Assembly (NCBI RefSeq): GCF_000014145.1
Contig: NC_008255.1
Coordinates: 4,170,001 to 4,234,000, forward strand
Length of the DNA stretch: 64,000 bases
Source of the DNA: Cytophaga hutchinsonii ATCC 33406
GTDB taxonomy: Bacteria > Bacteroidota > Bacteroidia > Cytophagales > Cytophagaceae
Direction of reading: 5' to 3'
In this document: positions 36,053-63,293 of the stretch, piece by piece
Position numbering within the stretch: position 1 is the first letter of the stretch
Layout of the letters: each line of letters begins with the position of its first letter
Program-made: the position numbers and the translations under genes
The notes under the pieces: model-generated
Databases searched by the model: none
The model's input: only the letters and a program-made list of their open reading frames with translations
What the model was told of the DNA's origin: nothing

Positions 36053-37093
36053 ATGCAGCAACAGCTGATTGAATTAAAGCCGCTCTTAGATTCTCCTAAG
36101 AAAATTGTTATAACCACCCATCACAAGCCGGATGCCGATGCATTAGGATCTTCGTTGGCATTGGCCCGTTTTTTAAAAAAATTAAAGCACGAGGTTCAGG
36201 TTATAGTACCTTCAGATTATCCGTCTTTTTTAGACTGGATGTCAGGGAATGACAGTGTCTGGATTTACAATGAGGGGAAAGAAGAGCAATCAGCGCTGTA
36301 CATTGAAGCAGCCGACATTATTTTTTGTCTGGATTTTAATGCACTTGGCCGCATAAATGAACTGGGCGCACTCGTTGGGAAATCTCCTGCAATAAAAGTA
36401 TTGGTAGATCACCATCTCGAACCACAGGATTTTGCTGACATTTCAATTTCAGACATAAAAGCAGCAGCTACAGGGGTTTTAATTTATGAATTGATTATTG
36501 GCCTGAATGGAAGAGACCTTATGGATACCTACATAGCTGAATGTATCTATGCAGGTATCATGACAGATACAGGATCATTCCGCCATTCAAATACAGATAA
36601 AAAAGTTCACCAGATCATTGCAGACCTATATAGCTGGAATCTTGATTCCTCGCGTGTGCATCGATTAATATTTGATACCAATTCAGAAGAACGTCTGAGA
36701 TTGCTTGGCTTTTGTTTATCAGAAAAACTAGTTGTATTGGCAGATTGCTATACAGCGTTTATGTATTTAAGTGCAGAAGAATTAAAACGTTTTGATGCAC
36801 GCACCGGCGATACAGAAGGCCTTGTAAATTATGCTTTATCCATTGACAAGGTAGTGCTTGCAGCCATGATTATCGAGCGAGAAGATGGCGTAAAAATATC
36901 CTTCCGCTCCAAAGGTGATTTTAATGTGAATGAATTTGCCCGTACTCATTTTGAAGGAGGTGGCCACAAAAATGCTTCAGGAGGAAGATCGCTTAAATCT
37001 TTGTCTGAAACAGTGCGCAACTTCCGTGAAATAGTATCCACTTATAAAGAAGAATTACTCGAAAATCTACGTAAAGAAAAATTTCTATGTTAA
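36053..37093 (+). CDS. nrnA: DHH-family oligoribonuclease/PAP phosphatase (NrnA-like)
   Basis: NrnA-type enzymes degrade very short RNA oligonucleotides (nanoRNA) and can dephosphorylate pAp. The 346-residue protein has the DHH signature residues: ITTHHKPDADALGSS, FCLDFNALGR, VDHHLEP and the GIMTDTGSFRHSNT motif. The C-terminal DHHA1 domain contains GGGHKNASGG. I start at the ATG at 36053, since the upstream TTG at 36017 adds nothing conserved. The stop overlaps the first FKBP gene start by 7 bases, so it heads a four-gene operon with three FKBP genes. Confidence 0.9.
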   Translation: MQQQLIELKPLLDSPKKIVITTHHKPDADALGSSLALARFLKKLKHEVQVIVPSDYPSFLDWMSGNDSVWIYNEGKEEQSALYIEAADIIFCLDFNALGRINELGALVGKSPAIKVLVDHHLEPQDFADISISDIKAAATGVLIYELIIGLNGRDLMDTYIAECIYAGIMTDTGSFRHSNTDKKVHQIIADLYSWNLDSSRVHRLIFDTNSEERLRLLGFCLSEKLVVLADCYTAFMYLSAEELKRFDARTGDTEGLVNYALSIDKVVLAAMIIEREDGVKISFRSKGDFNVNEFARTHFEGGGHKNASGGRSLKSLSETVRNFREIVSTYKEELLENLRKEKFLC

Positions 37094-37974
37094 AGAAAAG
37101 TTTATCCCTGTTAGCGGGAGCAGTAATGTTAGCAAGCATCACGTCATGCAACAAGTTTGAAAAAACAGAAAGCGGTTTAGAATACAAAATCTTAAAAGAT
37201 TCTTCAGGTGAAGATTATCCTGAAAAAGGAGGCTTTATTACATTTTGGTTTGAAATTCAAAACGATAAAGATTCAACGCTTGATACTCAATTTAAAGACC
37301 CGAATCCGGTAGGAATTCCAACACCGGATGTTGCGCACAAACCTAGCATTGAAGAAGGTTTTATGTTGCTTACAGAGGGTGATAGTGCCGTATTTTTACT
37401 GAATGCAGATTCATTATATGCAAACACGTTTCACCAAAAATTACCTGCGCACATAAAATCAGGAAGCAATGTGAAAATGGTTGTTCGCATGGGCAAAGTA
37501 TATTCTAAATCTTTTGTTGATTCAGTAATGGCAGTTCAGGAACAACAGATGGCAAACCAAATGCTTGCTGAAACGGAAGTTTACAAAAAGGATAGTCTTG
37601 CTATTCAGAATTACTTAACAAAAAATAAACTTAAAGGCCAGCCAACTATTGGCGGTGTGTACGTTGTTAAGCTGAAGCAAAATAATGCTACAGATCTGTT
37701 CATTGCTCCGGGTGATTCAATTGAAACATCTTATGTAGGTAAATTATTAATTGAAGGAACAGAATTTGATAAATCACGTGATGGTCAGCCATTCAAATTT
37801 ACTGTAGGTATGGGCCAGGTAATTAAAGGCTGGGACGAAGGATTTCAAAAGCTAAAGCGTGGTGAAAAAGCATTGTTGTTAATTCCTTCACGTTTAGCGT
37901 ATGGTTCAAGAGGTGCTCAAGGTGCAATTCCTCCAAATTCTCCATTGCTTTTTGAAGTTGAAGTAAAAAAATAA
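37087..37974 (+). CDS. FKBP-type peptidyl-prolyl isomerase lipoprotein (GldI-like)
   Basis: This 295-residue lipoprotein (lipobox ITSC, Cys21) has two FKBP units. The first (about 28-130) is degenerate. The second (about 205-295) has the canonical pocket: GDSIETSYVGKLL, FDKS, GMGQVIKGWDEGFQKLKRGE and IPSRLAYGSRGAQGAIPPNS. It catalyses cis-trans proline isomerisation in the envelope. It overlaps nrnA by 7 bases (ATGTTAA). The nrnA-FKBP arrangement and lipoprotein signal make it a candidate orthologue of GldI, a gliding-motility lipoprotein of Flavobacterium, but that is an inference from context. Confidence 0.85.
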   Translation: MLKKSLSLLAGAVMLASITSCNKFEKTESGLEYKILKDSSGEDYPEKGGFITFWFEIQNDKDSTLDTQFKDPNPVGIPTPDVAHKPSIEEGFMLLTEGDSAVFLLNADSLYANTFHQKLPAHIKSGSNVKMVVRMGKVYSKSFVDSVMAVQEQQMANQMLAETEVYKKDSLAIQNYLTKNKLKGQPTIGGVYVVKLKQNNATDLFIAPGDSIETSYVGKLLIEGTEFDKSRDGQPFKFTVGMGQVIKGWDEGFQKLKRGEKALLLIPSRLAYGSRGAQGAIPPNSPLLFEVEVKK

Positions 37975-37982
37975 CACAATAG

Positions 37983-38900
37983 ATGAACCGTATATCTATT
38001 TTTCTTTTTTTATTCTGTGCATGTATACTTAATGTATATGCACAGAATAAAAAAACACCAGCTACAGGCAAAGCCGAACCCAGCTATCTAAAAACCGCAA
38101 GCGGTTTAGAATATAAAATAATTAAAGAAGGCCCGGGAAACCAGCGGCCCGAACAAGGAGGTTATATTTCTTTTTGGTTTCAGCTCCAAACGCTTCAGGA
38201 CTCAATCATTGACAGTCAGTTTGGCGATCCGAATCCCGTAGGAATTCCTACCCAGGAGGCTTTGCACAAACCCGGCATTGAAGAAGGGTTTCTGTTACTG
38301 ACAGAAGGAGACAGCGCTGTTTTTTTATTGAATGCAGATTCATTGTATATAAATTCATTTCATCAGAAAAGACCGGATTACCTGAAGCCACAAAGCAAGG
38401 TTAAAATGATTGTAAAAATGGGCACTGTCTATTCAAAACAATTTGTTGATTCAGTAATGGCGCAGCAAAAAATTGCGATGGCCGAGCAGTCGAAAGGTGA
38501 AACAGATGTTTATACGAAGGATAGCATTGCCATTCAAAACTATTTGAAACAAAACCATCTATCCGGAGTGGCAACACCCGGTGGTGCATATGTAGTCATA
38601 TTAGAAAAAAGCACATTCAGCAAAGCAGATCTTAAAGCCGGCGAAGACGTACAGACAACCTACATCGGAAGCTTATTAAGCAACGGTTCTGTATTTGATA
38701 AGTCTGCCCCGGGCGATTATTTTAAATTCCGTTTAGGTTCCGGACAAGTTATTCAAGGCTGGGATCAAGGCTTCCTAAAATTAAAACACGGCGACAAGGC
38801 ACTGATTTTAATTCCTTCCCGTTTAGCTTATGGTACCAGAGGTGCCGGAGGAAGTATTCCGCCGAATGCACCATTGGTATTTGAAGTTCAGGTAAAATAA
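37983..38900 (+). CDS. FKBP-type peptidyl-prolyl isomerase, second in tandem array
   Basis: This 305-residue protein closely resembles the preceding one through its whole length (for example NPVGIPTQEALHKPGIEEGF and LLTEGDSAVFLLNADSLY) and so is a recent tandem duplicate. It has a signal peptide (MNRISIFLFLFCACILNVYA) rather than a clear lipobox, so the first copy is membrane anchored and this one may be soluble in the periplasm. The C-terminal FKBP unit has GQVIQGWDQGFLKLKHGDKA and LAYGTRGAGGSIPPNAPL. It starts 8 bases after the first copy. Confidence 0.87.
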   Translation: MNRISIFLFLFCACILNVYAQNKKTPATGKAEPSYLKTASGLEYKIIKEGPGNQRPEQGGYISFWFQLQTLQDSIIDSQFGDPNPVGIPTQEALHKPGIEEGFLLLTEGDSAVFLLNADSLYINSFHQKRPDYLKPQSKVKMIVKMGTVYSKQFVDSVMAQQKIAMAEQSKGETDVYTKDSIAIQNYLKQNHLSGVATPGGAYVVILEKSTFSKADLKAGEDVQTTYIGSLLSNGSVFDKSAPGDYFKFRLGSGQVIQGWDQGFLKLKHGDKALILIPSRLAYGTRGAGGSIPPNAPLVFEVQVK

Positions 38901-38912
38901 ATTAAAACACCA

Positions 38913-39806
38913 ATGAATAAAGTATACATCATTCTGGGTTTTTGTTTTCTAAGCATATCTGTTTTTGCTCAGAAAAAACAAAAGACTCCAAGCAAGGCAT
39001 CTCTATTTCATGAAAAGGATGTAGCCTATACACCCTCAGGTTTGGCATACAAATACAGACTTGATGTGCCGGGTAAAACCGGGGCAGTAGGTGATGTTGT
39101 AAAACTGCATTTTGTATTGCGTAACAGTAAAGATTCAATTCTGCGCAGTACCATAGAGGAAGACAGGATGGTTATTACAACCATTCAAAAACCAAGGTAT
39201 GCAGCATCCTTTGAAGAAGGTCTGGGAATGCTTTCTAAAGGAGACAGTTGTGCATTCTGGATTTCAGCAGATTCACTTTTTAAAAAAGGTATTGGTGCTG
39301 AAATGCCGCCCTTTATTGAAAAAGGAAGCTTCCTTCGTTTTGAAGTAAAGATGTATGACGTATTAACAATGGCAGAATATGTTGAGGAACAAGAAATTAT
39401 GGCAAAAAAAGTAAAAGCAGATGAAGATGCGGCATTAGCATCATACATCAAAACAAATAATATTCCGGCTGTGTTAGACACGGCAACAGGTGTATATTAC
39501 CAGGTGGTTCAGGCAGGCACAGGTGCTAAACCTAAAAAAGGAAACAAAGTAATTGTTCATTATACCGGGCATTTATTAAACGGAGAAATTTTTGACAGTT
39601 CACTCGATCGGGGAGATCCGTTTGATTTTATCATCGGACAAGGCCGCGTAATTGAAGGCTGGGATGAAGGTATTCCATTGATGCGAAAAGGAGAAAAAGG
39701 AATTTTATACATTCCATCCTATCGCGGTTATGGAGAGCAGCGTGCCGGAAGCATTCCCCCTAATTCTACATTGATATTTGAAGTTGAATTGCTGGATATA
39801 AAGTAG
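38913..39806 (+). CDS. FKBP-type peptidyl-prolyl isomerase, third in tandem array
   Basis: This 297-residue protein has a signal peptide (MNKVYIILGFCFLSISVFAQ) and the same two-unit layout, but it is more diverged from the first two. The C-terminal FKBP unit is intact: GNKVIVHYTGHLLNGEIFDS, FDFIIGQGRVIEGWDEGIPL and YRGYGEQRAGSIPPNSTLIF. It begins 12 bases after the second gene and ends the operon before a terminator at 39849-39886. Envelope protein folding is the likely role. Three in a row suggests different clients or subcellular sites, which is inferred. Confidence 0.88.
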   Translation: MNKVYIILGFCFLSISVFAQKKQKTPSKASLFHEKDVAYTPSGLAYKYRLDVPGKTGAVGDVVKLHFVLRNSKDSILRSTIEEDRMVITTIQKPRYAASFEEGLGMLSKGDSCAFWISADSLFKKGIGAEMPPFIEKGSFLRFEVKMYDVLTMAEYVEEQEIMAKKVKADEDAALASYIKTNNIPAVLDTATGVYYQVVQAGTGAKPKKGNKVIVHYTGHLLNGEIFDSSLDRGDPFDFIIGQGRVIEGWDEGIPLMRKGEKGILYIPSYRGYGEQRAGSIPPNSTLIFEVELLDIK

Positions 39807-42208: not shown

Positions 42209-42618
42209 AATGAGTTTTTCATAATTAATATAGGTGAAACTTGTTTTCAAAAACAACTGTAAATTTAAAAATCTATCTCAGCCGCCAACGAAAACCATAA
42301 AAAAAGGTTGCATTTTTATAAAATATTGAAAATTAAATGATTAATTGAAAAAATAATTTTTTTTAGTATTTTTTGATGTATAAATAGTAAAAAAAAGGGT
42401 GATTTGGCCTGTTACCTTTTAGTTAAGCAAGAGTATATATGTACAGAAATCACTAATAAGATTCATAATATGTTCATAAAGAGGGGAAAATAATTTCTAA
42501 CTTTTTTTATGCACATGTGATAATCCGTAAAAATTAGTGTAATTTCGTGGTTAAATACTATACAGACAAATGCTTTAAGTTATTTTGTTTGTATAAAATT
42601 TCAAAACGGACATATTAT
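42209..42618 (+). other. AT-rich leader upstream of the giant cargo gene
   Basis: No gene or RNA is evident in these 410 bases. There are poly-A/T runs near 42350-42400 and a weak TACCTTTT box at 42413-42420. A short GTTTT/AAAAC hairpin lies near 42240-42258, just after the helicase stop. No full TTTG/TAnnTTTG promoter could be chosen with confidence. Confidence 0.4.
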
Positions 42619-45600
42619 ATGATGTTAAAATCTACAAAAGGGCGTAACTGGTTGCTGTCAATTGGCTGCATGCTTACTTCATTTTTTGCTGTTGCGCAAA
42701 AGGATTTGGTTATTTCCGGAGGAAATAACGTATCCAGTTTTGTTTGTGAAAACAAAACGGCTTTTGTTTGGGGGAGCAATGTTGCAGGCCAATTAGGACT
42801 TTTTGATGCATCAGGCAATCCTATAACAGCCACTCCAATTACTTCACCTACAGCAATTACAAAATTTAATGGGCTTGCCTCTGCACCTGACGTTAAGCAG
42901 ATAAACTCTGGTTCAGGCTCTCACTTTGTTGCATTAACTTGTGGTGGCGACGTTTGGGCATGGGGAGTAAATGGAAGAGGACAAATTGGAACAGGAACTA
43001 CCGGAGGTGTAGTAACCATCCCAACAAGGGTTCTTGCCAATACATCTGTTAATGCTACAAACAGGGGGCCCGGTGATATATTAATAAATGCTTCGGTAGT
43101 TTATTCCGGTACGGTAAACTCATTTGCTATTTTGCAGGATGGAAGACTTGTTTCCTGGGGAGGAAATTCCGGAACAGATGAGTCGGATGGCGCACCTTTA
43201 GCTCAGGCAGGTCAGTTAGGTCAGGGCACTGTTACAGATGTTAACAGAGCTAATTATGTATTAACTGCGGCTGGAGTTCCGCTTGAAGGTGTTATTCAGA
43301 TTTTTGCTGGTGACAACGTTGCATATGCGCTGGCAGATCCGGATGGAGATGGGATAGGTACTGTGTATTCATGGGGATTTGGCCAAAAAGGAATGTTGGG
43401 AAGAAATGCCGCAGGAACAGCAAATCCTCTTGCCGGTACTACAGTACAAAGCAGTTTTGCAAGACCTGTTTACTATGCAAATGGTACACCAATGAACAAT
43501 ATTCAGCAATTACAGGCAGGTGACGTTTTTGGTATTGCTTTAGATGTAAATAATTATGTTTGGACATGGGGAAATGGTTATTGGAACAACTCTACAGGTA
43601 ATGCCCCTACAAATACCACTTCTGAACCGCGCAGAGTTATTGCGGGTGGAACAACAGGTGCAAGTAATGATGGCACGTATTTATTAGCTAAGGCAATTGG
43701 CGGCGGTCAGGGTTTTGGCATGGCTGTAACGATTGATGGCAAACCGGTTGCCTGGGGCGGAGGCGGTTGTACAGATGGAGGTGCTATTGGTAATGGTACA
43801 TTAACCGGCTCTACTACAGGTCCTCAATACATTAAATATGGTCCTGGAGCCACAGCTATTCACAGCAATGTTACGTTAATCAACAGAGGCGATACATGGG
43901 GCTTTTATGGCACCGCAGACAACAATTTATATGCCTGGGGATGTAATGCTGTAGGTCAGCTGGGAATTGGAAATACAACCAGTCAGGCTTATGCAACGTT
44001 AATTACTCCACCTACAGGCTGTAGTGTAAGAGATCCTGCACCAACAGTTAATTTAACTCCCGGTGATACAAAAGTTTGTCCGACATTCTCCTTGGTTTTG
44101 AATTCAGGTTTTGTTCCCAATACAGGTCTTGGAGCAAGTTACAGAATTACCTGGTATAGAGGTGCTGTAACGCCAGGCAATATCGTTAAGCAGGGATTGA
44201 CCTCTGTTGCTGCGAACTTAACTTATACAGCAACAGTAGCCGGAACATATACGGTAGTTGTAACATATATTGGCACAAAAGCAGGTTGTAATGTATATGA
44301 AGATGCTACTGACGATGTGGTAATTTCAGTTATTCCTACACCAACAGTAATTAAAAAAACGTTTTGTGGTAATGTAGGTACGGTACAACTGACACCAGAC
44401 CCTTCAGATCCGGCATCCGTAAAATACAACTTTTATGCAACCGCTTCAAGTACTCCTGTTATAGGAACAACTACAGGTTCTGCAGAAGGAACACTGGATC
44501 TTACAGGGATTGCAGCTGATGGCTCTGGCAATAAAACAGTTTATTACAGCAAGTCTTCAGATGGCGGTGGATTGGTATATAGAAGAACTCAAGCGTGTGA
44601 TCCTACATTTCAGCAAACAAATTTTGACCAGGGAAACATAGGCAGATTTAGTCAGGAGTATACGGCCGCAAAACCCGTAACGGTTACTGGCGTCTCTTTT
44701 AATTTACAATATAAGTTTGAAAACACACTGAATGTTGCAGGAACAATGACATTCAGCATTGTAGGTTCAAAATTTACTACTAACGGAACGGGAGGATATA
44801 TTCCGGACAACACCATTGTTTATGGAACACTAACTAAAACTTTCACGGGAACTTCAACTACTACCAACACAACTGTGTTTAAAAGAGACTCAGCAGTTGG
44901 AAGTGTAGCTGTACCGGCAGGAAGATTTTTTATTGTACCGACATCTCTGGTAAGAACTTCTACCGGCGACGGCCAATTTGGATTGGGAATGGGAAATTGT
45001 ACGCAATCATTTCCTATTGTTGATAATTTTGACGGATTAACAGTTTCCAGAACAGGTTCTGTTAAAGACGGCACTCCAAATGCTACTGATCCTGGATTTA
45101 CCTATGATGTAAAATTCCAGTTACCTGCTATACCATGTCCACGTATTGCAGTAGTATTAACACCAAACTGTCCCTGCACCAAACCGTCCGCGGTAACGAT
45201 CACGACCCCGTCTACGGGTACTGTAACGCTTTGTCAGGGTACGGCTCAGAATCTAATCGGCAGTGCAACAGTAACAGCTGCTGCACAGAACACCAACTTT
45301 ACGTATTCGTGGATCAAGGTTTTACCCACCCCTGTAACCACCCCGGTTGCAGCAACGGTAATTGCGCTTCCGGCCAATACACCTACGTCTACCCCGGCAT
45401 TTGCCTTAACGGGCGCGCTAACGGATGCGGGTACCTATACCTTACGTGTAGAGGATGGCAACACAGGGAATGCATCCTGTTATACAGAGGCCAGCGTAGT
45501 GGTAGTCGTGAACGCTACAACAGTTGCGGGTTCCATAGCCGCAGCGCAGACGATCTGTACGGGCGGCGACCCGGTAGCCTTTACCAGCGTAGCAGCTACC

Positions 45601-48600
45601 GGCGGCAACGGGACAACATATTCGTATGTATGGGAAAAATCGATCAACGGAGCAGCGTATGCCGATATCACACCTGCAGTTACTACAGCTACTTTTGATG
45701 AAGGCGTATTAACCAATGCAGGGACAACAGCCATGACGGTTGACTACCGCCGTAAAGTTACCTCGGGGGCCTGTCCGCAGGTCACCACAGCCGCTATCCG
45801 TATCACGGTTAACCCAGCCATTGTTGCGGGCATAGTTGCGGCCGACCAGACGATCTGTTCAGGCGGGGATCCGGCAGCCTTTACGGTAACGGCGGCCCCG
45901 ACAGGAGGCACAGGCACGTATACCTACCAGTGGCAGAGCGCTTCAGCCCTTGCAGGTACGTATACCAATATTTCCTCAGCAACAGGAGCCACCTACGATG
46001 TTCCATCGGGCTTAACAGCAACCACGTATTACAGAAGAGTAGATGCCTCAGGCACCTGTACAACAGTCAACACCAATGTTATCACTGTCACGGTTCAGCC
46101 GGCTTTGGTAGCAGGTTCCATAGCATCGGCCCAGACCATCTGTACAGGCGGCGACCCGGTAGCCTTTACCAGCGTAGCAGCTACCGGCGGCAACGGGACA
46201 ACATATTCGTATGTATGGGAAAAATCCATCAACGGGGCAGCGTATGCCGATATTACTCCAGCCGTAAGCACAGCGACCTTTGATGAAGGCGTATTAACCA
46301 ATACAGGTACAACCGCTATGACCGTAGACTACCGCCGTAAAGTTACCTCGGGAATGTGTTCTCAGGTGACCACCGCAGCGGTACGTATCACAGTTACTCC
46401 GGCCATTGTTGCCGGCGCTATAGCCACCGATCAGGCGATCTGTTCAGGCGGTGACCCGGCAGCCTTTACAGTTCCAACGGCAGCATCGGGCGGTACAGGC
46501 ACCTTTACCTACCAGTGGGAATCCTCGGTTTCACCGTTCACAACCTGGACAGCAATATCCACATCAGGCACAGGCTCTACCTATGATGCCCCATCAGGCT
46601 TAACAGCGACAACCCACTACAGAAGAGTTGTCTCATCAGGTACATGCACTGCAGCCAACACCAACGAAGTGATTGTTACCGTAACACCGACTGTTGCGCC
46701 AGGGGTAACAATCTCCACGCCATCAACGACAATCTGTGCGGGCACAAGCGTAACGTTTACCGCTACGCCAACCAACGCAGGTACGCCTCCGACTTATCAG
46801 TGGTACAAAGGAGCAGTAGGCTCAGGTACGGCGATAGGTTCAGCAACAGGCTCCACCTATACAACCAGTTCGGTAGCCAACAACGACAGCTATTATGTTG
46901 TTGTAACCAGTACGGCAACCTGCCCGAGCCCTGCCACAGCAAGCTCCACAGCGATAGTAATGACTGTAACCACGGTTGTAACCCCTGCGGTAAGCATTAC
47001 AGCAGCACCAGCCGGTACGATCTGCGCCGGCACAAGCGTAACCTTTACAGCGAGTCCGGGCAACGGAGGTACCGCGCCGACCTATGAGTGGTTTATAAAA
47101 AAGACCACAGATGCGGCCCCTGTAAGCCAGGGGGCAGCGAGCTCTGCAGCAGGATCCGATGAGTTCACGCGTTCCAACCTTGGAAACGGCGATGAAGTAA
47201 GCGTTCGTATGGTAAGTAACTCCGGCTGCGTAGTTGCTCCGGGTATAGCCAATTCGAATGTGATCACGATGACAGTTACACCGATCCCTGCCCCGTCGGT
47301 ATCGTTATCAGCCAACAAGAGCACGTTATGTCCATCCGAGACCATTATTTATACAGCCGTTCCGACAGCAGGGGGTGCCGCACCTACCTATGTATGGAAA
47401 AATAACGGCACAGTCATTACAGGCCAGTCGGGCTCAACGCTGACAACCACAGGTACAGCGATCGGCACACCAAACTCCATTACGGTAGAAATGGTAAGCA
47501 ATGCGCCATGCGCGCCTGCAACCCCGGCCGTCTCCACACCGGTAGCCGTAACGGTTACCCCTGTACCGACCTTATCGGTAAGCATCGCAGCAGATAAGAC
47601 CACGATCTGTTCAGGTAATGCGGTTCAGTTTACCGCTAGCGCAACGGGTTCAGGCTCCACACCAGCGCCAACCTATGAGTGGTTCATCGGAGCGGCAGGT
47701 TCAGAAACCAGCCAGGGAGCAGGTTCCACCACGGCGAACCCGTACAGCACAACATCGTTAACGACCACAGCAGCGTTAAGCCCTCAGACCTACAGCATTT
47801 ATGTAAGAGCGACCAGCAATGCAACCTGCGCGAGCACCACTCCGGCACAGTCCGCAGCGGTCACTGTTACGGTAAATGCCGGAGTTGGCGCGGGAACAAT
47901 CACAACAACGTTATTAACGATCTGCAACAACACCGTTCCCGGTGCGATTACTGAAGCAAGCGCTGCCAGCGGAGGCACTTCCCCGACCTATACGTGGGAA
48001 GAATCCATTGACAACGGGGCCTGGGGCCCTGCCACAGGCACTGTAAGCGGTACGGGCTTTACACCGAGCGGCGCCAAAACAGGCACCAAAGTATCCTACA
48101 GAAGAATTGTAACCTATACAAGCATCCCGGCTCCATGCAACACAGCCATGAGCAACATTATCGACATCACGGTTAACCCTGCTTTAGTGGCCGGCGTTAT
48201 CCAGGATGATCAGATAATCTGTTCAGGATTGGTTCCGGCAGCGCTTACCCAGGTAAGCGCGCCAACAGGCGGTACAGGCAGCTATACCTACCAGTGGCAG
48301 AGCAGCAGCACAGGCACAGCCGGTTCGTTCAGCAATATTGGCGGAGCCACCACATCTGGCTATGCACCGGGCGCATTAACGGCAACCACCTACTACCAGC
48401 GCGTGGAAACGTCCGGCACATGCGGGAGTGTCACCGGCAATATGGTAACCATCACCGTATCGACCCCCGAAGTAGTAACAGCCCAGATCAACGATCCGGG
48501 TCAGGTATGCGAGGGTTCAGTGCCGATGGTGTTTACGGCCACCACAACGGGATCCGGTACCTTAACGTATGCCTGGACACTTGACGGAGCACCGGTAGGC

Positions 48601-49782
48601 ACCAACAGCAGTACATACAGCTATAACCCAACCACAGCATCCGATGCAGGCAAAAAAGTAAAAGTAGTTGTAACGACCTCAATCGGCTGTAATGCCGGTC
48701 CTGGTATCTCCAATGAAGTAGCCCTGAATATTGTTGTATCAAGCATGCCTTCGGTAAGCATCACGGGAGCGCCTGCGGTACAGTGTTCCGGTTTACCGGT
48801 CCGCTTTACGGTAAGCAATACCACAGCCGGTGGCAACAATCCGACCTACCAGTGGTTCATCGAATCACAGGCAGGTGTAGCCACCGCAGTAAGCGGGGCA
48901 ACCAATACAAGCTTTACCAGCACAGGCTTAACTGCCGGGGATAAGGTGTATGTGGAACTTACTTCCAATCTTGGCTGCGCACTGGGTACCAACCCGCACG
49001 CTTCCAATAAGATCGCACCAGCGATCCTTGCTACACCGGCTCCGGTGATCAATGAGACACCGCTTCCGATCTGCAGCCCGGAAGGGTTTGAGTTCACCGC
49101 CACAGTAGGAAGTGCAACGCCTCCAAATACGCTGCAGTGGTATAAGGATGGCGTAGCGATAAGCGGAGCAACCACAAGCATCTACAAAGCCTTTGAAAGC
49201 GGACTTTATTCGATAGAGGAGAGCAATGCAGCATGCGGCACGATCTCCACGGAAGTACCGCTTACCGTAATCCAGACGCCGGTAGCCAATGCGGGTTCAG
49301 ATATCACGGTAAAAGAAGGAGAGCAGGTAACGCTGAACGGCAGCGGGGGAGTAATCTACAGCTGGAGCCCGGATACGGGTCTGGATGATGCCAGTTCAGC
49401 CAATCCGAAGTTAACAGCCGATAAGACAATCATGTATATCTTAACGGTTCGTGACGCCACAGGCCAGTGCCATGATGATGATGAAGTAATGGTGTTTGTG
49501 GAGCGTCCGATCAAGGTACCCAATGTAATAACAGTAAACGGTGATGGAGTGAACGATACCTGGGAGATTGAGAACATCGAGAGCTTCCCCAATGCCGAGT
49601 TCCTGATCTACAACCGCTGGGGGAACCTGGTGTGGAAGAGCACAGGGTATCCCAAGGAGTGGGATGCGACCAACTTCCGCAACGGGGAAGTATTGCCCGA
49701 CGGTACCTACTTCTACATCATCGACCTGCACAGTACCATCTATACAGAAGCATACACCGGGTATATACAGGTAGTGAAATAA
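42619..49782 (+). CDS. Giant RCC1-repeat/Ig-like protein with T9SS type B (CHU_C) tail
   Basis: This 2387-residue surface or secreted protein has a signal peptide (MLKSTKGRNWLLSIGCMLTS, then FFAVAQ). Residues about 25-460 are RCC1-type repeats (FVWGSNVAGQLGLFD, VWAWGVNGRGQIGTG, VYSWGFGQKGMLGRN, LYAWGCNAVGQLGIG). From about 470 on come many Ig-like beta modules of 80-100 residues. The last 85 residues are a gliding-motility CHU_C tail, IKVPNVITVNGDGVNDTWEI, then YNRWGNLVW, ending YTGYIQVVK. I start at the ATG at 42619 because the GTG at 42547 precedes a non-signal stretch. From about 45170 the DNA becomes clearly richer in G/C, and internal repeats appear. A PorP/SprF gene follows. Adhesion is likely; the ligand is unknown. 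Confidence 0.9.
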   Translation: MMLKSTKGRNWLLSIGCMLTSFFAVAQKDLVISGGNNVSSFVCENKTAFVWGSNVAGQLGLFDASGNPITATPITSPTAITKFNGLASAPDVKQINSGSGSHFVALTCGGDVWAWGVNGRGQIGTGTTGGVVTIPTRVLANTSVNATNRGPGDILINASVVYSGTVNSFAILQDGRLVSWGGNSGTDESDGAPLAQAGQLGQGTVTDVNRANYVLTAAGVPLEGVIQIFAGDNVAYALADPDGDGIGTVYSWGFGQKGMLGRNAAGTANPLAGTTVQSSFARPVYYANGTPMNNIQQLQAGDVFGIALDVNNYVWTWGNGYWNNSTGNAPTNTTSEPRRVIAGGTTGASNDGTYLLAKAIGGGQGFGMAVTIDGKPVAWGGGGCTDGGAIGNGTLTGSTTGPQYIKYGPGATAIHSNVTLINRGDTWGFYGTADNNLYAWGCNAVGQLGIGNTTSQAYATLITPPTGCSVRDPAPTVNLTPGDTKVCPTFSLVLNSGFVPNTGLGASYRITWYRGAVTPGNIVKQGLTSVAANLTYTATVAGTYTVVVTYIGTKAGCNVYEDATDDVVISVIPTPTVIKKTFCGNVGTVQLTPDPSDPASVKYNFYATASSTPVIGTTTGSAEGTLDLTGIAADGSGNKTVYYSKSSDGGGLVYRRTQACDPTFQQTNFDQGNIGRFSQEYTAAKPVTVTGVSFNLQYKFENTLNVAGTMTFSIVGSKFTTNGTGGYIPDNTIVYGTLTKTFTGTSTTTNTTVFKRDSAVGSVAVPAGRFFIVPTSLVRTSTGDGQFGLGMGNCTQSFPIVDNFDGLTVSRTGSVKDGTPNATDPGFTYDVKFQLPAIPCPRIAVVLTPNCPCTKPSAVTITTPSTGTVTLCQGTAQNLIGSATVTAAAQNTNFTYSWIKVLPTPVTTPVAATVIALPANTPTSTPAFALTGALTDAGTYTLRVEDGNTGNASCYTEASVVVVVNATTVAGSIAAAQTICTGGDPVAFTSVAATGGNGTTYSYVWEKSINGAAYADITPAVTTATFDEGVLTNAGTTAMTVDYRRKVTSGACPQVTTAAIRITVNPAIVAGIVAADQTICSGGDPAAFTVTAAPTGGTGTYTYQWQSASALAGTYTNISSATGATYDVPSGLTATTYYRRVDASGTCTTVNTNVITVTVQPALVAGSIASAQTICTGGDPVAFTSVAATGGNGTTYSYVWEKSINGAAYADITPAVSTATFDEGVLTNTGTTAMTVDYRRKVTSGMCSQVTTAAVRITVTPAIVAGAIATDQAICSGGDPAAFTVPTAASGGTGTFTYQWESSVSPFTTWTAISTSGTGSTYDAPSGLTATTHYRRVVSSGTCTAANTNEVIVTVTPTVAPGVTISTPSTTICAGTSVTFTATPTNAGTPPTYQWYKGAVGSGTAIGSATGSTYTTSSVANNDSYYVVVTSTATCPSPATASSTAIVMTVTTVVTPAVSITAAPAGTICAGTSVTFTASPGNGGTAPTYEWFIKKTTDAAPVSQGAASSAAGSDEFTRSNLGNGDEVSVRMVSNSGCVVAPGIANSNVITMTVTPIPAPSVSLSANKSTLCPSETIIYTAVPTAGGAAPTYVWKNNGTVITGQSGSTLTTTGTAIGTPNSITVEMVSNAPCAPATPAVSTPVAVTVTPVPTLSVSIAADKTTICSGNAVQFTASATGSGSTPAPTYEWFIGAAGSETSQGAGSTTANPYSTTSLTTTAALSPQTYSIYVRATSNATCASTTPAQSAAVTVTVNAGVGAGTITTTLLTICNNTVPGAITEASAASGGTSPTYTWEESIDNGAWGPATGTVSGTGFTPSGAKTGTKVSYRRIVTYTSIPAPCNTAMSNIIDITVNPALVAGVIQDDQIICSGLVPAALTQVSAPTGGTGSYTYQWQSSSTGTAGSFSNIGGATTSGYAPGALTATTYYQRVETSGTCGSVTGNMVTITVSTPEVVTAQINDPGQVCEGSVPMVFTATTTGSGTLTYAWTLDGAPVGTNSSTYSYNPTTASDAGKKVKVVVTTSIGCNAGPGISNEVALNIVVSSMPSVSITGAPAVQCSGLPVRFTVSNTTAGGNNPTYQWFIESQAGVATAVSGATNTSFTSTGLTAGDKVYVELTSNLGCALGTNPHASNKIAPAILATPAPVINETPLPICSPEGFEFTATVGSATPPNTLQWYKDGVAISGATTSIYKAFESGLYSIEESNAACGTISTEVPLTVIQTPVANAGSDITVKEGEQVTLNGSGGVIYSWSPDTGLDDASSANPKLTADKTIMYILTVRDATGQCHDDDEVMVFVERPIKVPNVITVNGDGVNDTWEIENIESFPNAEFLIYNRWGNLVWKSTGYPKEWDATNFRNGEVLPDGTYFYIIDLHSTIYTEAYTGYIQVVK
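45562..45641 (+). repeat. Internal DNA repeat, copy 1 (80 bp identical)
   Basis: These 80 bases are identical to 46147-46226. They are part of a longer similar unit of 585 bp (195 codons) covering two Ig-like modules, repeated head to tail as A-B-A'-B'. A later, more diverged B-type module begins near 48178. Confidence 0.9.
46147..46226 (+). repeat. Internal DNA repeat, copy 2 (80 bp identical)
   Basis: These 80 bases are identical to 45562-45641, offset 585 bases. The surrounding modules are similar but have several silent and coding differences, which points to duplication followed by drift or gene conversion. Confidence 0.9.
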
Positions 49783-49823
49783 AGAATAACAGAATAAATA
49801 AAAAACAATAGAATAATAATAAT

Positions 49824-49901
49824 AACCGGTAAAAGGCATTAAGCAGAGAAATCAATCCTGCAGTCTGCAGTGCTGATAGTGCTGATATTCTTTTACCGGT
49901 T
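49824..49901 (+). terminator. Hairpin between giant cargo and PorP/SprF genes
   Basis: Perfect 12-base arms AACCGGTAAAAG and CTTTTACCGGTT enclose 54 bases that contain the doublet GTGCTGATAGTGCTGATA. A short T run follows. It could partly stop transcription between the two genes or shield the mRNA end. Confidence 0.5.
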
Positions 49902-49939
49902 TTGATAGAGAGAGAAAAAACAATTAAAAGATCGCTTGA

Positions 49940-50896
49940 ATGAAAAAGTCTTATTTGTTATTGTGTTTCATGTTTTGTTGTGCAGTTGGCGCGTTTGCTC
50001 AGCAGCGTCCGCAATACACGCAGTATATGGTTAACCCGTTTTTGTTAAACCCGGCCGTTTCGGGAACAGAAGACTATGCAGATCTGCGGGCAGGTTACCG
50101 CAAGCAGTGGGCAGGTTTTGAAGGATCACCGCGTACCATGTATGTGAGTGCGCATACCAATATCGGCAAGCATTTAGTTACCAATAACCGTTCAAGAAGC
50201 AAGAAAAACGGTTTCCATGGAATCGGCGGTATTATAACCAACGATGCGATCGGAGCCACCAATACGACCACGTTGAGTGCAGCATATTCCTACCATTTGA
50301 AAGTATCCAAAAAGGTATTTGTATCGCTGGGTGCTATGGGTGGATTTAACCAGTTTTCGCTGGATGCCAACAAGCTTCAGCCGGCCTCTCAAGGAGATAA
50401 CCTGATCCAGAGCCAGTCGAAGATGGGTTTAGGGGATATCACAGTTGGTGGCTGGGTGTATTCAGATAAGTTTTACTTTGGAGCCTCTATGGCTCAGCTG
50501 GCACCGAGCTTAACGTTTACACGTACAGGGGAAGCGCTTAACTATCAGCTGGCGCACCATTATTTTGTGATGGCCGGCTATATGATCCCGCTGGGTTATG
50601 ATTTTAAATTCATTCCATCGGTTTGTATCAAAGGGTTAACGCCTGCGCCTTTATCGTTTGATATCAATGCGAAGATCCGTTACAAGGATTTTTTATGGGC
50701 CGGAGTATCGTACAGAAACCGGGATGCGGTAGCGGGTATGGTTGGGATCATCATCAACAATACCTTTGATATCAGCTATTCCTATGACTATGTAACCAGC
50801 GACATTCATAAATATACAGGAGGCTCCCATGAGATTGTGGTAGGGTACCGCTTACGCTCTCAGGGCAGAATCATCTGCCCCTCTAACTTCTGGTAA
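49940..50896 (+). CDS. PorP/SprF-family T9SS outer-membrane protein
   Basis: This 318-residue protein has a signal peptide (MKKSYLLLCFMFCCAVGAFA) and the PorP/SprF start QQRPQYTQYMVNPFLLNPAV, then GTEDYADLRAGYRKQWAGFE. It continues as an outer-membrane beta barrel with strands such as GGIITNDAIGATNTTTLSAA and ending HEIVVGYRLRSQG. In Flavobacterium johnsoniae, SprF supports secretion of SprB, which has a type B sorting domain. Its placement directly after a type B cargo gene implies the same job here, which is inferred from the known pair. Base composition matches the 3' half of the cargo gene. A strong terminator follows at 50917-50956. Confidence 0.9.
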   Translation: MKKSYLLLCFMFCCAVGAFAQQRPQYTQYMVNPFLLNPAVSGTEDYADLRAGYRKQWAGFEGSPRTMYVSAHTNIGKHLVTNNRSRSKKNGFHGIGGIITNDAIGATNTTTLSAAYSYHLKVSKKVFVSLGAMGGFNQFSLDANKLQPASQGDNLIQSQSKMGLGDITVGGWVYSDKFYFGASMAQLAPSLTFTRTGEALNYQLAHHYFVMAGYMIPLGYDFKFIPSVCIKGLTPAPLSFDINAKIRYKDFLWAGVSYRNRDAVAGMVGIIINNTFDISYSYDYVTSDIHKYTGGSHEIVVGYRLRSQGRIICPSNFW

Positions 50897-55538: not shown

Positions 55539-55550
55539 CATCGCTGCCTG

Positions 55551-55596
55551 TAAGGGCAAACTGCATTCGCCCTTATATAGATAATGAGCGAATGCA
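55551..55596. terminator. Overlapping alternative hairpins between convergent genes
   Basis: TAAGGGC (55551-55557) can pair with GCCCTTA (55569-55575), while TGCATTCGC (55562-55570) can pair with GCGAATGCA (55588-55596). The two stems share bases 55569-55570, so they cannot form at once. They lie between the stops at 55538 and 55605. Confidence 0.5.
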
Positions 55597-55604
55597 ACTT
55601 GCCG

Positions 55605-58600
55605 CTACTCCAGTACAATTGGAAAATCGCTTCCTCTTGAAAAAGTGTATGGGAACTGAATCTTCCCGCTATACTTTGAATTTAGCTCCGGCACCTGATC
55701 ATCCAGATACGATTTTAATTCATAAATAGTAATTTTACCATCTTTTGGTGCACCATCTGCTTTGCCGTTCAGGGCTTCCAGTAATACATAGGTGAACAAA
55801 CCATGTTTTAATTCCAGGATTTCTTTTGCGTTTTGCTCGCTTCCTGCAGAAGCCATTACGTGAATACCTGCGCCTCTTGAAAGTTGTGCAAAGGCTTTTT
55901 CTTCATTTGCTCCGCGCATGGCTAACACCTCAACCGACCCTCCTGACTGGCAGGCATCCATAATAATAATCTGTTTCAATGCTTTTATATTTTTAAACCC
56001 TGCCTGTATTGTTTCAGCTGATAACGCATTGTTTGCAGTTGCCTGATACATACTTGTGCATTCAGTAGGAATAAAATAAAAATTCTGATCTACCATGCTG
56101 CCATGTCCGGCGTAATAAAAAATAAAAACGTCATTTAGAGCGATATGCGCTTCAAGACTTTTTAGTGTATCTAAAACGTTTTGTCTGGTGGCGGCAGCAT
56201 CATACAACCCATGTACAATTACTTTCTGGTATAGATTAGCTCCGTTTCTTTTCACTGATTCTGCAAATGCTTCAGCATCTTCACGGGCGTAGTTTAATGT
56301 ATATGCAGGATTTTTATAGGTATCAATTCCGATGGCAAATACATGACAAACGGCAGCACTGGGTGCTTTATCAGAAACAACCGAAACAAGCGATGCAGCG
56401 GATTCAATTTTGCCCTTACTCACCGCAATGCCGCTAAACTGATTTGTTCCGCGAACCAATGATACAGGAACGGAATAAATATATGAATTGCCTTTTCCTT
56501 CTACGACCTTTTTAGGGTCTAATGCTACAGCCATATTTTTGCCATTATGCGCCAAACGAATTTCGCTCAGGCCACCGCCTTCATCCATCACTTTAATATT
56601 TAAGGTTGCCTGCAAACCATCTGCATTGGGTATGCATGCGAGCTTAATCAGTGGTGGAGGTGAGAGTTGCAAACTGTTTTCTACATTTTGCATACCGGTA
56701 GGTGAAGAACCTCTGTTAAGAAAAATCTGCTGAATAAGATCTGGTCTGTAGTATTCGAAAAACTGATCCGGAGCGTACACATCCATTCCTTTCACAAAAT
56801 GAATATCTGCACGCGCCTGTTCTGTTGCACTGAAGTAACCTTGGGGCGTTCGGGCCATCCACTCTCTTGAACTGATGTGAACATGCTCATAAAATTCCAG
56901 TCCCGACTCTAAATTCCAGAATTTAACAACACCATCTGTGCTGTATGAAACAAGCATCTTTCCATCTTTGCTTAAAGACAAAGAAGTAATCTCAGACTGA
57001 TGACCGTTTAAGGTCTTTAATACTTGGCCGGATTGTATATCCCAGATGCGGATGATACGGTCATCCCCTCCGGTAATAATTTTTTTACTGTCTGTGGAAT
57101 AAATTGCGCTGTGCAACATACCCCTGGCTCCCTTAAATTTTTGCAGCATCATGCCTGTAGTTACATCCCAGATGCGCGCGGTTCCATCCCATGAGGCAGT
57201 GAGTGCCTTATTCGGATCTGCTCCGAACGCAATAGATGAAACAACATCGGTGTGACCTATAAACGAAAGCACAACTTTTTTAGAATCCGGTTCACGCAAT
57301 TCCAGTGATTTATCTAATCTGCCGCAAAGCAGGTACAGTCCGTTGGGAGTAAAGGAAATGCTATAGCAGGAATTTTCTTTCAGATACATATCTGAGCTTA
57401 CTTCTCCCGTCTGAACATCATACACTTCAATGCTTGCATCCCACGAACCGGTTGCTACATATTTTCCATCTCTGCTCAACGACACATCAAAAATAGGTTC
57501 GGTATGTGGTTTAATGCGATTGATCAGCGCGCCTGTTTTTGTGTTCCAAAGAAATACTTCACCCGCACCGTCTGCTGTGGCTAATATGCTGCCATCAGCC
57601 GATTGATCCATGCTGATCACCGCTTTAGTATGTCCTTCGTATAATTTATTCGGAGCCCCGGTTGAGATATTCCATTGAATGGCATTTACCCCGGTTTTGC
57701 CTGTTATAAAATTATTGTCATCTTTTGTCAGCAGCAATTCATTTTTAAGTCGAAGATAACGCGCAATATTATATTCCCAGTAATTGTCTGCATTATAGTT
57801 AAGCCCGCCTTTATCCTGCTCCTGCAACGCCCCCTGATAGGTACGGATCACTTTTCCGCTAGCGGCCTCAAGTGCCCACGCAGTCATATTATCAGAGGCA
57901 ACAAGAATTTCTTTTTCATCCAATGAAAGCGCAATATCATTTACCGTTTCAGATAAATAAAGTTTGTAGGCAACAACAGTTTTTGACGTAATGGTATAAT
58001 TATACAACATACTGTCACTGGCGGCAATCACATGCTGGCCGTCTTTTGTAAGGGTTATGCCACGTAAATAATCAACGGGCTCGCCGAAGGTTTTGATCAG
58101 ACTGCCTGTTTGCAAATCATATTGTGATAATTTATCGTTATGCGCGATTTTAAAAAGTGATTTATTATCACGCGAAAATTCAACATACGTTCCACAGCCA
58201 CCGCACCAGCCTTCAGCGGGTTTAAAGGTGTATGCCAGATGCCAGTCACTTGTACGATATACATTTGCTGTTTTATTGTCTTCACCAATAGCCAGCCATT
58301 TACCATCATTGCTATACTTCAGGCTGATGCCATATCCTGATCCCTGATCTGCATTTACTTCCAGGCGTTTAATTAATTTCCCCGAGGGTATCGCATAAAT
58401 CGATGCAGAGTCCGGATAGCCGGCATATGCAAAAGATTTGCCATCGGGATTGAAGGCGACATCGGTAATGTATTTCGAATTTTTCGGAGAGGTGAAAATT
58501 TCTTTTCCTGTTAAAATGTCCCACACGCGCGCTGTGCCGTCTGCACTGCTGGTTGCGAGCAGTTTTCCATCTGGACTGAATGCCAAGCCGTTTACGGTAT

Positions 58601-58826
58601 GGTCATGGCCGATCAGACTGCGTATCTCCATACCGGATTGCTGATCCCATAATTTTACACTTTTATCCCGGCTGCCTGTAGCCAGTATTTTGCCGTCAGG
58701 GCTTACGGCAACAGCTTTCACCGAGGCGGAGTGACCTTTTTGAATCACAGTCTCAAGCTTCAATGTTTGGGCGTAACTACTTAAAGTCAGAATAAAAAAT
58801 AATAAGACAAACGTACGTTGTTTCAT
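55605..58826 (-). CDS. Exported WD40-repeat/caspase-like (peptidase C14) fusion
   Basis: This 1073-residue protein has a signal peptide (MKQRTFVLLFFILTLSSYAQ). Residues about 25-640 hold WD40 repeats (for example KAVAVSPDGKILATGSRDKS with VKLWD, VNGLAFSPDGKLLATSSADG with ARVWD, and KKIITGGDDRIIRIWDIQSG), enough for two propellers. Residues about 700-810 contain a FHA-less beta region. The C-terminal 250 residues are a caspase-like domain with the catalytic dyad His near 907 (YYAGHGS) and Cys near 960 (DACQSGG). I start at the ATG at 58826; a longer start at 58898 adds no signal. Targets and function are unknown. Confidence 0.88.
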   Translation of the reverse strand: MKQRTFVLLFFILTLSSYAQTLKLETVIQKGHSASVKAVAVSPDGKILATGSRDKSVKLWDQQSGMEIRSLIGHDHTVNGLAFSPDGKLLATSSADGTARVWDILTGKEIFTSPKNSKYITDVAFNPDGKSFAYAGYPDSASIYAIPSGKLIKRLEVNADQGSGYGISLKYSNDGKWLAIGEDNKTANVYRTSDWHLAYTFKPAEGWCGGCGTYVEFSRDNKSLFKIAHNDKLSQYDLQTGSLIKTFGEPVDYLRGITLTKDGQHVIAASDSMLYNYTITSKTVVAYKLYLSETVNDIALSLDEKEILVASDNMTAWALEAASGKVIRTYQGALQEQDKGGLNYNADNYWEYNIARYLRLKNELLLTKDDNNFITGKTGVNAIQWNISTGAPNKLYEGHTKAVISMDQSADGSILATADGAGEVFLWNTKTGALINRIKPHTEPIFDVSLSRDGKYVATGSWDASIEVYDVQTGEVSSDMYLKENSCYSISFTPNGLYLLCGRLDKSLELREPDSKKVVLSFIGHTDVVSSIAFGADPNKALTASWDGTARIWDVTTGMMLQKFKGARGMLHSAIYSTDSKKIITGGDDRIIRIWDIQSGQVLKTLNGHQSEITSLSLSKDGKMLVSYSTDGVVKFWNLESGLEFYEHVHISSREWMARTPQGYFSATEQARADIHFVKGMDVYAPDQFFEYYRPDLIQQIFLNRGSSPTGMQNVENSLQLSPPPLIKLACIPNADGLQATLNIKVMDEGGGLSEIRLAHNGKNMAVALDPKKVVEGKGNSYIYSVPVSLVRGTNQFSGIAVSKGKIESAASLVSVVSDKAPSAAVCHVFAIGIDTYKNPAYTLNYAREDAEAFAESVKRNGANLYQKVIVHGLYDAAATRQNVLDTLKSLEAHIALNDVFIFYYAGHGSMVDQNFYFIPTECTSMYQATANNALSAETIQAGFKNIKALKQIIIMDACQSGGSVEVLAMRGANEEKAFAQLSRGAGIHVMASAGSEQNAKEILELKHGLFTYVLLEALNGKADGAPKDGKITIYELKSYLDDQVPELNSKYSGKIQFPYTFSRGSDFPIVLE

Positions 58827-61343: not shown

Positions 61344-61754
61344 TTATTTAATATCAACAATTTCAATTAAAAAGTATAAGGTTGAATTTGGAGCGACAAC
61401 ACCTTCAATTCCTTTTTTACCGTACCCAAGTTCAGAAGGAATGATGCAGTACCATTTTTCTCCTTTGCTCATGAGTTTTACAGCTTCATCCCATCCGGGA
61501 ATTACTTCATGGTTATCCACTTGAAATTTAAAGGGTTTTCCTCCTTCATTGGTTTCAACTACACGCCCTGTTGAAGATTTTCTACTGTAAATTACCTTTA
61601 CTGTTTGTCCGGCTTTTGGATGAATGCCATCACCTTCTTTTATGCGGACATATTTAATTCCACTGTTTGTTGTAAGGGTGTCTGCTGCTGAAGCACATAG
61701 GCTTATAATGCAGCAGAGGGCACAAAGCATGCCTGTTAAAATTTTTTTTATCAT
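61344..61754 (-). CDS. Small exported FKBP-type peptidyl-prolyl isomerase
   Basis: This 136-residue protein has a signal peptide (MIKKILTGMLCALCCIISLC, cleavage near ASA) and a single FKBP domain: GIKYVRIKEGDGIHPKAG, then FKFQVDNHEVIPGWDEAVKL, MSKGEKWYCIIPSELGYGKK and APNSTLYFLIEIVDIK. The Trp in PGWDEA, usual in the active site, is kept, though the paralogue upstream has Leu there. I start at the ATG at 61754; the open frame runs further to 61982 but overlaps the fumC start on the other strand and adds no signal. A terminator follows. Confidence 0.87.
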   Translation of the reverse strand: MIKKILTGMLCALCCIISLCASAADTLTTNSGIKYVRIKEGDGIHPKAGQTVKVIYSRKSSTGRVVETNEGGKPFKFQVDNHEVIPGWDEAVKLMSKGEKWYCIIPSELGYGKKGIEGVVAPNSTLYFLIEIVDIK

Positions 61755-61904
61755 GATTGTACGGTTAAAATTACTGGTTGATTTCTTGTACGTTAGAAAA
61801 GCCGATCCGTTTATTCCATGTATTGAATTATTGCGGCTGTAACACTTTCGTATTTGAAAAAAACTCTTCATATTAAGGTAGACAAACTTAACGTAAAAAT
61901 CAAT

Positions 61905-63293
61905 ATGTCTATTCGAATTGAAAAAGATACCATGGGTTTGGTGGAAGTGCCGGCAGATAAATATTGGGGTGCACAAACCCAACGTTCCATAGAAAATTTT
62001 AAAATCGGTGATGCTTCAACGCGCATGCCGATCGAAATCATACACGCCTTCGCTATCTTAAAAAAGGCAGCTGCACAAACAAATCTCGAATTAGGGATTT
62101 TAGATAAAGAAAAAGCAGGCAGTATCGCAGAAGTCTGCGATGAAATTCTGGCAAAAAAACTGGATGATCAATTTCCGTTGGTTGTATGGCAAACAGGTTC
62201 GGGTACACAATCAAATATGAATGTGAATGAAGTGATTGCAAACCGTGCACATGTTTTGCTTGGCGGAAATTTACTGGATGAAACAAAAAAAATTCATCCA
62301 AATGATGATGTAAATAAATCGCAGTCATCAAACGACACGTTTCCCACGGCTATGCACATTGCCGCTTGCCTGATGTTAAAAAAAGTAACGATTCCAGGAA
62401 TAGAGCAATTGCAGCATACGTTACGGACAAAAACAGAACAGTTTAAAGATGTTGTTAAAATAGGCCGTACGCATTTCATGGATGCAACGCCTTTGACATT
62501 GGGCCAGGAGTTTTCCGGATATGCTGCGCAATTAAGCTATGCATTAAAAGCAATTCACAATGCCTCGGCACATCTTTCAGAACTAGCGCTGGGTGGAACA
62601 GCTGTTGGTACGGGAATTAATGCACCCAAAGGATATGCGGAACGGGTTGCCGGGCACATTGCTGCGCTCACAGGTTTTCCGTTTACATCAGCACCCAATA
62701 AATTTGAAGCACTTGCTACACACGACGCATTGGTAGAAATGCACGGCGCGTTAAAAACGTCTGCAGTGAGTCTGATGAAAATTGCAAATGACATTCGCAT
62801 GCTTGCATCCGGTCCCAGAAGCGGGATTGGAGAAATCCACATTCCGGATAATGAACCCGGATCTTCAATCATGCCGGGCAAGGTGAATCCTACACAGGTA
62901 GAAGCCTTGACGATGGTTTGCGCGCAGGTAATGGGAAATGATGTAACATTGTCCGTTGCAGGTTCTATGGGACAGTTTGAATTGAATGTGTTCAAACCGG
63001 TGATTATTTATAATTTTCTGCAATCTGCACGGCTGATCGGTGATGCATGTGTTTCATTTAATGAAAAATGTGCAAAAGGAATAGAGCCTAATACAGCCAC
63101 CATTGAACGCAATGTAGAAAACTCGTTGATGCTGGTTACAGCCTTAAATCCGCATATTGGTTATGATAAGTCTGCAGAAATTGCAAAACATGCGCATAAA
63201 GAAAACACAAGTCTCCGGCAGGCTGCATTAGCATTAGGCTATGTTACCAACGAACAGTTTGATGCCTGGGTAAATCCTAAAAATATGATCTAG
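61905..63293 (+). CDS. fumC: Fumarate hydratase class II
   Basis: FumC converts fumarate to malate in the TCA cycle and needs no iron-sulfur cluster. The 462-residue product has the family landmarks [51 protein letters not shown] and the signature [12 protein letters not shown] at about 318-330. I start at the ATG at 61905, which gives the usual [12 protein letters not shown]-terminus; the open frame extends back to a TTG at 61854. Length is standard. It is a single gene divergent from the intact small FKBP gene. Confidence 0.97.

Follow-up and report, generated by a model that had tools for sequence, protein, structure and literature searches.

An apparently exported caspase-like protease of Cytophaga hutchinsonii with two WD40 propellers and a conserved catalytic dyad

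Bacterial caspase homologues have been reviewed mostly as players in stress and cell death, whether cytoplasmic or membrane associated, as far as the available portions of three articles extend (PMC3501461, PMC5756287, and PMC7475262). The available portion of the first (Asplund-Samuelsson 2012, PMC3501461) reports WD40 repeats in 73 of 671 (10.9%) prokaryotic metacaspases, together with N-terminal helices that are possibly signal peptides, and considers that such proteins may act extracellularly; these features had thus been reported before. Here we describe a gene of this kind in a 64,000-nucleotide stretch of the Cytophaga hutchinsonii ATCC 33406 genome (contig NC_008255.1, positions 4,170,001 to 4,234,000; referred to as the window, with positions numbered from its first letter). 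The gene is real, intact, and conserved, and encodes an apparently exported protease of a known kind, with two predicted WD40 propellers, an immunoglobulin-like (Ig-like) module, and a C-terminal peptidase C14 (caspase) domain. We put at about even the chance that the protein is a periplasmic, Arg/Lys-specific C14 protease of the orthocaspase/paracaspase type, whose propellers dock a substrate or report binding or state.

The coordinates, strand, and length in the original prediction are correct, and the features of the gene and its downstream boundary are as follows.

55605-58826, minus strand: gene for the apparently exported WD40-WD40-Ig-C14 protease, 1,073 amino acids from an ATG start (translation, Pfam, full-length relatives)
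58767-58826, minus strand: putative Sec signal-peptide region, residues 1-20 (sequence, similar N termini in relatives; cleavage between SYA and Q placed by eye)
57837-58754, minus strand: first seven-bladed propeller, residues ~25-330 (AlphaFold2 strands counted by eye, WD40 match)
56877-57737, minus strand: second seven-bladed propeller, residues ~364-650 (AlphaFold2 strands counted by eye, WD40 match)
56373-56663, minus strand: Ig-like beta sandwich, residues ~722-818 (AlphaFold2 strand pattern)
55605-56351, minus strand: caspase (C14) domain, residues ~826-1073, with H908 and C959 (Peptidase_C14 match, fold match, dyad in 78/78)
55605-55940, minus strand: segment that follows the catalytic Cys (loop plus p10-like part), residues 963-1073, with the highest conservation in the protein and R971-G972 invariant (identity over relatives)
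55550-55608, no strand: inverted repeat between two convergent genes, probably a shared terminator (repeat and fold, z of -6.5)

The protease assignment is supported by a Pfam match to Peptidase_C14 (PF00656) at 51.2 bits, against a curated cutoff of 21.4, the only C14 match of the genome; the WD40 repeats score 250.7 bits against a cutoff of 27, and the Ig-like region (residues 722 to 818) matches no family at its cutoff in the Pfam scan. The catalytic His is residue 908 in a YYAGHG motif and the Cys is residue 959 in DACQSG, so the dyad that had been read from the sequence is confirmed. A whole-protein search was run on 59 genomes of the group, among them that of the window, and finds a full-length counterpart in 17 (that genome again counted), with H908 and C959 invariant in all 17 proteins. 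Within the window's family, 14 of 19 genomes carry a full-length ortholog and one more copy runs off a contig end, and 11 of the 19 have exactly one C14 match. A larger set was assembled by scanning genome contigs with a pair of peptide patterns drawn from the catalytic region, the catalytic Cys being part of one of them, and taking the best 80 loci of 194 relatives; Cys conservation in this set therefore arises partly by selection, a bias from which the 16 relatives of the whole-protein search (17 rows with the window protein) are free. After exclusion of three loci (L077, L082, and L111), 77 relatives were aligned with the window protein, and none of the 78 sequences departs from H908, C959, D850, D957, R971, or G972. 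No loss of the catalytic residues in close relatives, which would have counted against the original prediction, was thus found, and a pseudoprotease was rejected on the invariant dyad of both sets.

Conservation is highest in the C14 part. Mean identity to the window protein over residues 963 to 1073 is 74.6% among the 77 relatives and 74.4% among the 16 from the whole-protein search; the corresponding pairs of values are 50.8% and 55.0% in the p20 part, and 39 to 43% and 45 to 49% in the propellers. The nearest named relative found is that of C. aurantiaca (79% identity), and in comparison with it the nonsynonymous substitution rate (dN) is 0.082 for the caspase domain, 0.176 for propeller 1, 0.100 for propeller 2, and 0.283 for the Ig-like module; synonymous sites are saturated in three of the five comparisons, so dN/dS ratios were dropped and dN alone is usable. 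The arrangement of two propellers, Ig-like module, and C14 domain is kept among the relatives, and the protein is an ordinary member of a known group of bacterial proteases. Four full-length relatives (L092, L101, L102, and L105) are in metagenome-assembled genomes (MAGs) labeled Bacteroidales, Acetofilamentum, and Chlorobiota and form one branch of the tree; this branch, outside the Cytophagales by label, may reflect transfer or mislabeled bins. A viral or mobile origin was considered and rejected: a scan of viral contigs gave three distant matches (25 to 27% identity), all within the catalytic part.

The AlphaFold2 model of the whole protein, built from a 78-row family alignment, has a mean predicted local distance difference test score (pLDDT) of 87.6 and a predicted template modeling score of 0.80. 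It bears out the proposal of two propellers preceding the C14 domain, with both counted as seven-bladed from its strands, and adds the Ig-like sandwich, which follows the second propeller after a short connector, with the caspase fold last. The 50 matches listed in a Foldseek search with the whole model look like WD40 or other multipropeller proteins and are uninformative on the protease; because propellers dominate that search, the C-terminal 418 residues were modeled separately (pLDDT of 83.6). The top fold match of this part is MALT1 (Z of 21.1, root mean square deviation of 2.6 over 200 residues, 17 to 18% identity), with procaspase-7 (Z of 20.3) and Arabidopsis metacaspase 4 (Z of 20.1) to be regarded as ties according to the comparison tool's own note, and GSU0716 of Geobacter sulfurreducens scoring 19.6. 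The first 15 rows of a Foldseek search with the same model are all MALT1, and since model residues 169 to 418 align with MALT1 residues 340 to 563, a p10-equivalent part seems to be present, which orthocaspases in the strict sense, having p20 without p10, would lack.

Substrate preference can be predicted from the catalytic pocket. In the metacaspase MCA2 of Trypanosoma brucei, a basic P1 residue is held by Cys92, Asp95, Ser159, and Asp211, according to the available portion of PMC6426788. A profile alignment pairs D95 of MCA2 with D850 of the window protein and Cys92 with Ala847, and D957, which is beyond the cover of that alignment, is placed at D211 by its position in the D-x-C motif. The acidic pair D850 and D957 predicts a preference for Arg or Lys, and the catalytic domain would thus cut after these residues. 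The model falls below a pLDDT of 50 only at residues 961 to 969 and 997 to 1000, both following the catalytic Cys, as expected of a mobile activation loop given that the region is highly conserved. The segment that holds these stretches (residues 961 to 1000, window positions ~55827 to 55946) is inside the most conserved part of the protein, and the model suggests that this loop changes shape or binds something. The protease would probably be inactive until the loop is rearranged or cut, with R971-G972 as a candidate self-cleavage site; the self-processing of a cyanobacterial orthocaspase described in the accessible part of PMC5756287 is a precedent.

The N terminus reads MKQRTFVLLFFILTLSSYA followed by QT, with the cleavage point placed by eye after SYA and before Q, and a signal-peptide-like N terminus is kept in 70 of 78 relatives by a rule, in keeping with the proposed export of the protein. 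The 78 are the 80 loci without L077 and L111, whose N termini are broken or cut; among the eight that miss the rule, seven resemble signal peptides by eye and the eighth (L082) has a misplaced start. These calls combine a home-made rule with reading by eye. An earlier version of the rule (68 of 78 relatives) was dropped since it also matched 237 of 499 neighboring open reading frames (ORFs), and the second version was evaluated on control families from the neighborhood, some of whose names were assigned by eye: it matches none of 35 folP, 33 kbl-like, and 28 shikimate-kinase-like proteins, 4 of 32 DUF1599 and 2 of 41 cdaA proteins, 12 of 28 MauE-like proteins, and, as expected positives, 26 of 26 members of an outer-membrane-type family.

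These observations suggest that the protein exits the cytoplasm by the Sec route, although its signal could instead stay uncleaved, so that the N-terminal helix anchors a sensor-protease in the inner membrane with its propellers outside. The helix is indeed hydrophobic, and membrane-bound WD40 orthocaspases have been proposed in cyanobacteria (PMC7475262, available portion), but the protease is cytoplasmic there. Moreover, the SYA-Q junction suits signal peptidase I, short endings like SYA before Gln recur at the N termini of relatives, and the first propeller strand begins ~5 residues past the putative cleavage point in the AlphaFold2 model, and we consider an uncleaved anchor unlikely. A lipoprotein was rejected, as a lipobox-like pattern occurs in just 1 of 80 relatives. 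Secretion to the cell surface by the type IX system, with a use like that of the gingipains, would fit a genome in which type IX parts are present (a PorP/SprF gene and a CHU_C protein are within the window), but there is no sorting domain among the Pfam matches of the C-terminal part at an E value of ≤1 or its NCBIfam matches at ≤0.1, and the C terminus is the end of the caspase fold; such a surface protease is highly improbable, and type IX secretion was rejected. The lack of a type IX tail makes the periplasm likelier than the surface, and the protein, judged by its sequence, is probably periplasmic. The proposed location in the envelope or outside is thereby reduced to the probable periplasm.

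Export had also been presented as unusual for a bacterial caspase-like protein, a view that finds no support within the phylum. Among 118 sampled genomes, 31 contain a C14 domain, and 48 of the 50 listed C14 places were examined, the other two being the gene described here and an ortholog that was in the set of relatives as L014. By a lenient signal-peptide rule, 25 of these 48 C14 ORFs pass, a count that is rough in both directions, as the frame of at least one ORF (L128) is doubtful and the start is probably wrong in some others (L145, for instance, seems exported yet fails the rule). All seven other WD40-type C14 proteins in the sample look exported by this rule, so export is the usual state of such proteins here, with the published precedent noted above (PMC3501461); WD40 repeats were detected with a profile from the family's second propeller, and further WD40-C14 proteins may have been missed. 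The seven retain the His, the Cys, and both pocket Asp residues, and have Arg (six) or Lys (one) at position 971.

Taken together, the analysis shows the gene, its predicted domain order, the dyad, the acidic pocket pair, the conservation, and the signal-peptide-like N terminus; from these we infer that the export signal is cleaved, that the protein resides in the periplasm, is active, prefers Arg or Lys and processes itself, and what the propellers do. As it lacks a type IX tail, the protein would most likely remain in the periplasm, where the two propellers would serve as a platform on which an envelope protein docks and is presented to the catalytic domain, or would signal such binding to it; the simplest reading of the propellers is as docking surfaces. 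Several points weigh against a periplasmic Arg/Lys-specific protease of this design. The signal-peptide rule is home-made and gives false positives in some controls (epimerases, 32 of 33), and the search that gave the 80 loci made use, in part, of the Cys motif. All 78 aligned proteins have Ala847 where MCA2 has the pocket residue Cys92, and PMC5756287, in its accessible part, reports that mutation of Cys92 markedly reduced MCA2 activity and that the activity of one plant metacaspase fell by 90% when such a Cys was changed to Ala. Finally, the loop after the catalytic Cys is poorly modeled, and self-cleavage is guessed from conservation.

In the window, the neighbors on both sides are on the opposite strand and the gene stands alone, as originally described, but this does not extend across the family. 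Of the 80 loci, 41, all among L038 to L109 (e.g., L093:4129-9210), have an upstream cdaA-type gene, for synthesis of cyclic di-AMP (c-di-AMP), in the same orientation, and the gap to the protease gene measures -47 to 111 bp at 37 of these and ≤52 bp at 34; five loci (L033, L052, L067, L106, and L111) have less than 1.2 kb upstream, cannot show cdaA, and are counted as without it. A folP-type gene is also present in 35 of the 41 cdaA loci, a kbl-like aminotransferase gene is on the opposite strand in 35 of the same 41, and other neighbors on that strand include DUF1599 (32 of 80) and a shikimate-kinase-like gene (28 of 80). Pfam was run on eight genes of locus L093 (two without a match), confirming CdaA and the pterin-binding enzyme, and neighbor identities were extended from L093 to the other loci by blastp clustering. 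All 40 labeled cdaA rows are in one clade of 47, with 5 label changes compared to 24.7 in shuffles (FastTree).

This arrangement could mean that the protease serves envelope homeostasis in connection with c-di-AMP, being made together with CdaA in one clade and adjusting the envelope upon changes in turgor or wall, with the free-standing copies doing the same task. The close same-strand spacing and the single clade argue for this, but the opposite-strand genes are kept nearly as often, so that the association may be plain synteny, and the window's own lineage lacks the cdaA link. The retention of the kbl-like gene on the other strand indicates that the cdaA association is owed in large part to common descent of the region, and we regard the c-di-AMP role as quite unlikely. 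A broader claim, that a widespread Bacteroidota class of periplasmic twin-propeller, paracaspase-like proteins acts as a housekeeping envelope regulator and not in cell death, cotranscribed in one clade with a c-di-AMP synthase, is very unlikely; if true, it would connect a second messenger of the cytoplasm with a protease of caspase type located beyond the inner membrane. A conserved partner gene in the window's own lineage was sought and rejected, as each of nine flanking genes occurs in no more than 3 of the 80 loci, chiefly those of C. aurantiaca and one Cytophagaceae MAG.

An exported orthocaspase could alternatively be a death or conflict effector that lyses its own cell or its neighbors on a signal, as proposed for extracellular prokaryotic caspase homologues in the available portion of PMC3501461. 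The PADLOC caspase model matches the protein (E value of 1.2e-16), a WD40-rich HEAT-ARM model matches its propellers (E value of 3e-27), and a flanking CorA-type transporter has weak matches to PADLOC CorA-like models over a short C-terminal stretch (best E value of 8e-05). However, the other two of the three flanking proteins scanned match no PADLOC model, and the model for the EACC1-associated conflict-system caspase (NF047832), with a cutoff of 140 bits, reaches only 78.9 bits with the C-terminal part and 76.5 with the whole protein. The presence of an ortholog in most genomes of the family, frequently as the sole C14 protein, resembles that of a stable housekeeping gene, and the commonest neighborhood of the relatives consists of housekeeping genes. 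A death or conflict role is therefore distinctly unlikely.

The gene converges on a DUF4468 gene, and a hairpin at positions 55550 to 55608, between the stop codon and that gene, is likely a shared terminator; the 66-nucleotide stretch starting at the stop codon folds at -31.4 kcal/mol (z of -6.5). No match to a Bacteroidota-type promoter consensus was found upstream of the gene. Elsewhere in the window, positions 42547 to 50896 hold the gene for the CHU_C protein mentioned above, in which RCC1-like and Ig-like repeats precede or accompany a type IX tail of the CHU_C family over 2,411 residues and which adjoins the PorP/SprF gene, and the G+C content at 44 to 50 kb is 47 to 54%, compared with ~39% around it. 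Three tandem genes for FKBP-type peptidyl-prolyl isomerases of ~300 amino acids each are at 37087 to 39806, with a fourth FKBP gene at 61344 to 61982, and an integrase-core (rve) ORF at 1340 to 2095 is probably part of an insertion sequence.

No paper treating this protein was found by title or by the start of its abstract, in a search whose coverage omits most subscription papers; one listed C. hutchinsonii article (PMC5891637) contains the word WD40 a single time. As an apparently exported, dyad-keeping protein that is the sole C14 match of its genome, it is suited to reveal whether caspase homologues do ordinary envelope work, and the cdaA neighbor in the sister clade is a second concrete lead.

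Among described proteins, the nearest solved C14 protein by sequence is GSU0716 (PDB 3bij; profile E value of 5.5e-06), which has a similar fold, but its chain of 285 residues is too short for propellers. MCA2, a type I metacaspase, shares the dyad and two pocket Asp residues at corresponding places and differs in having Cys92 where the window protein and its relatives have Ala847. The likeness to the human paracaspase MALT1 consists of the top (tied) fold score and, going by entry titles, an Ig domain adjacent to the caspase domain; the order differs, however, with the Ig domain after the caspase domain in the MALT1 constructs of known structure and before it here, and identity over the aligned part is low, as given above. 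MALT1 is not known to have propellers and acts inside the cell. The WD40-bearing prokaryotic C14 homologues, the orthocaspases or bacterial metacaspases, have the C14 domain, the His-Cys dyad, acidic pocket residues, and WD40 repeats on the same chain in common with the window protein, as described in the available portion of PMC3501461. Where orthocaspases carry additional domains, these commonly follow p20 (PMC5756287, accessible part), whereas in the C. hutchinsonii protein a predicted N-terminal export signal is followed by two propellers and then the Ig-like module, with the protease last.

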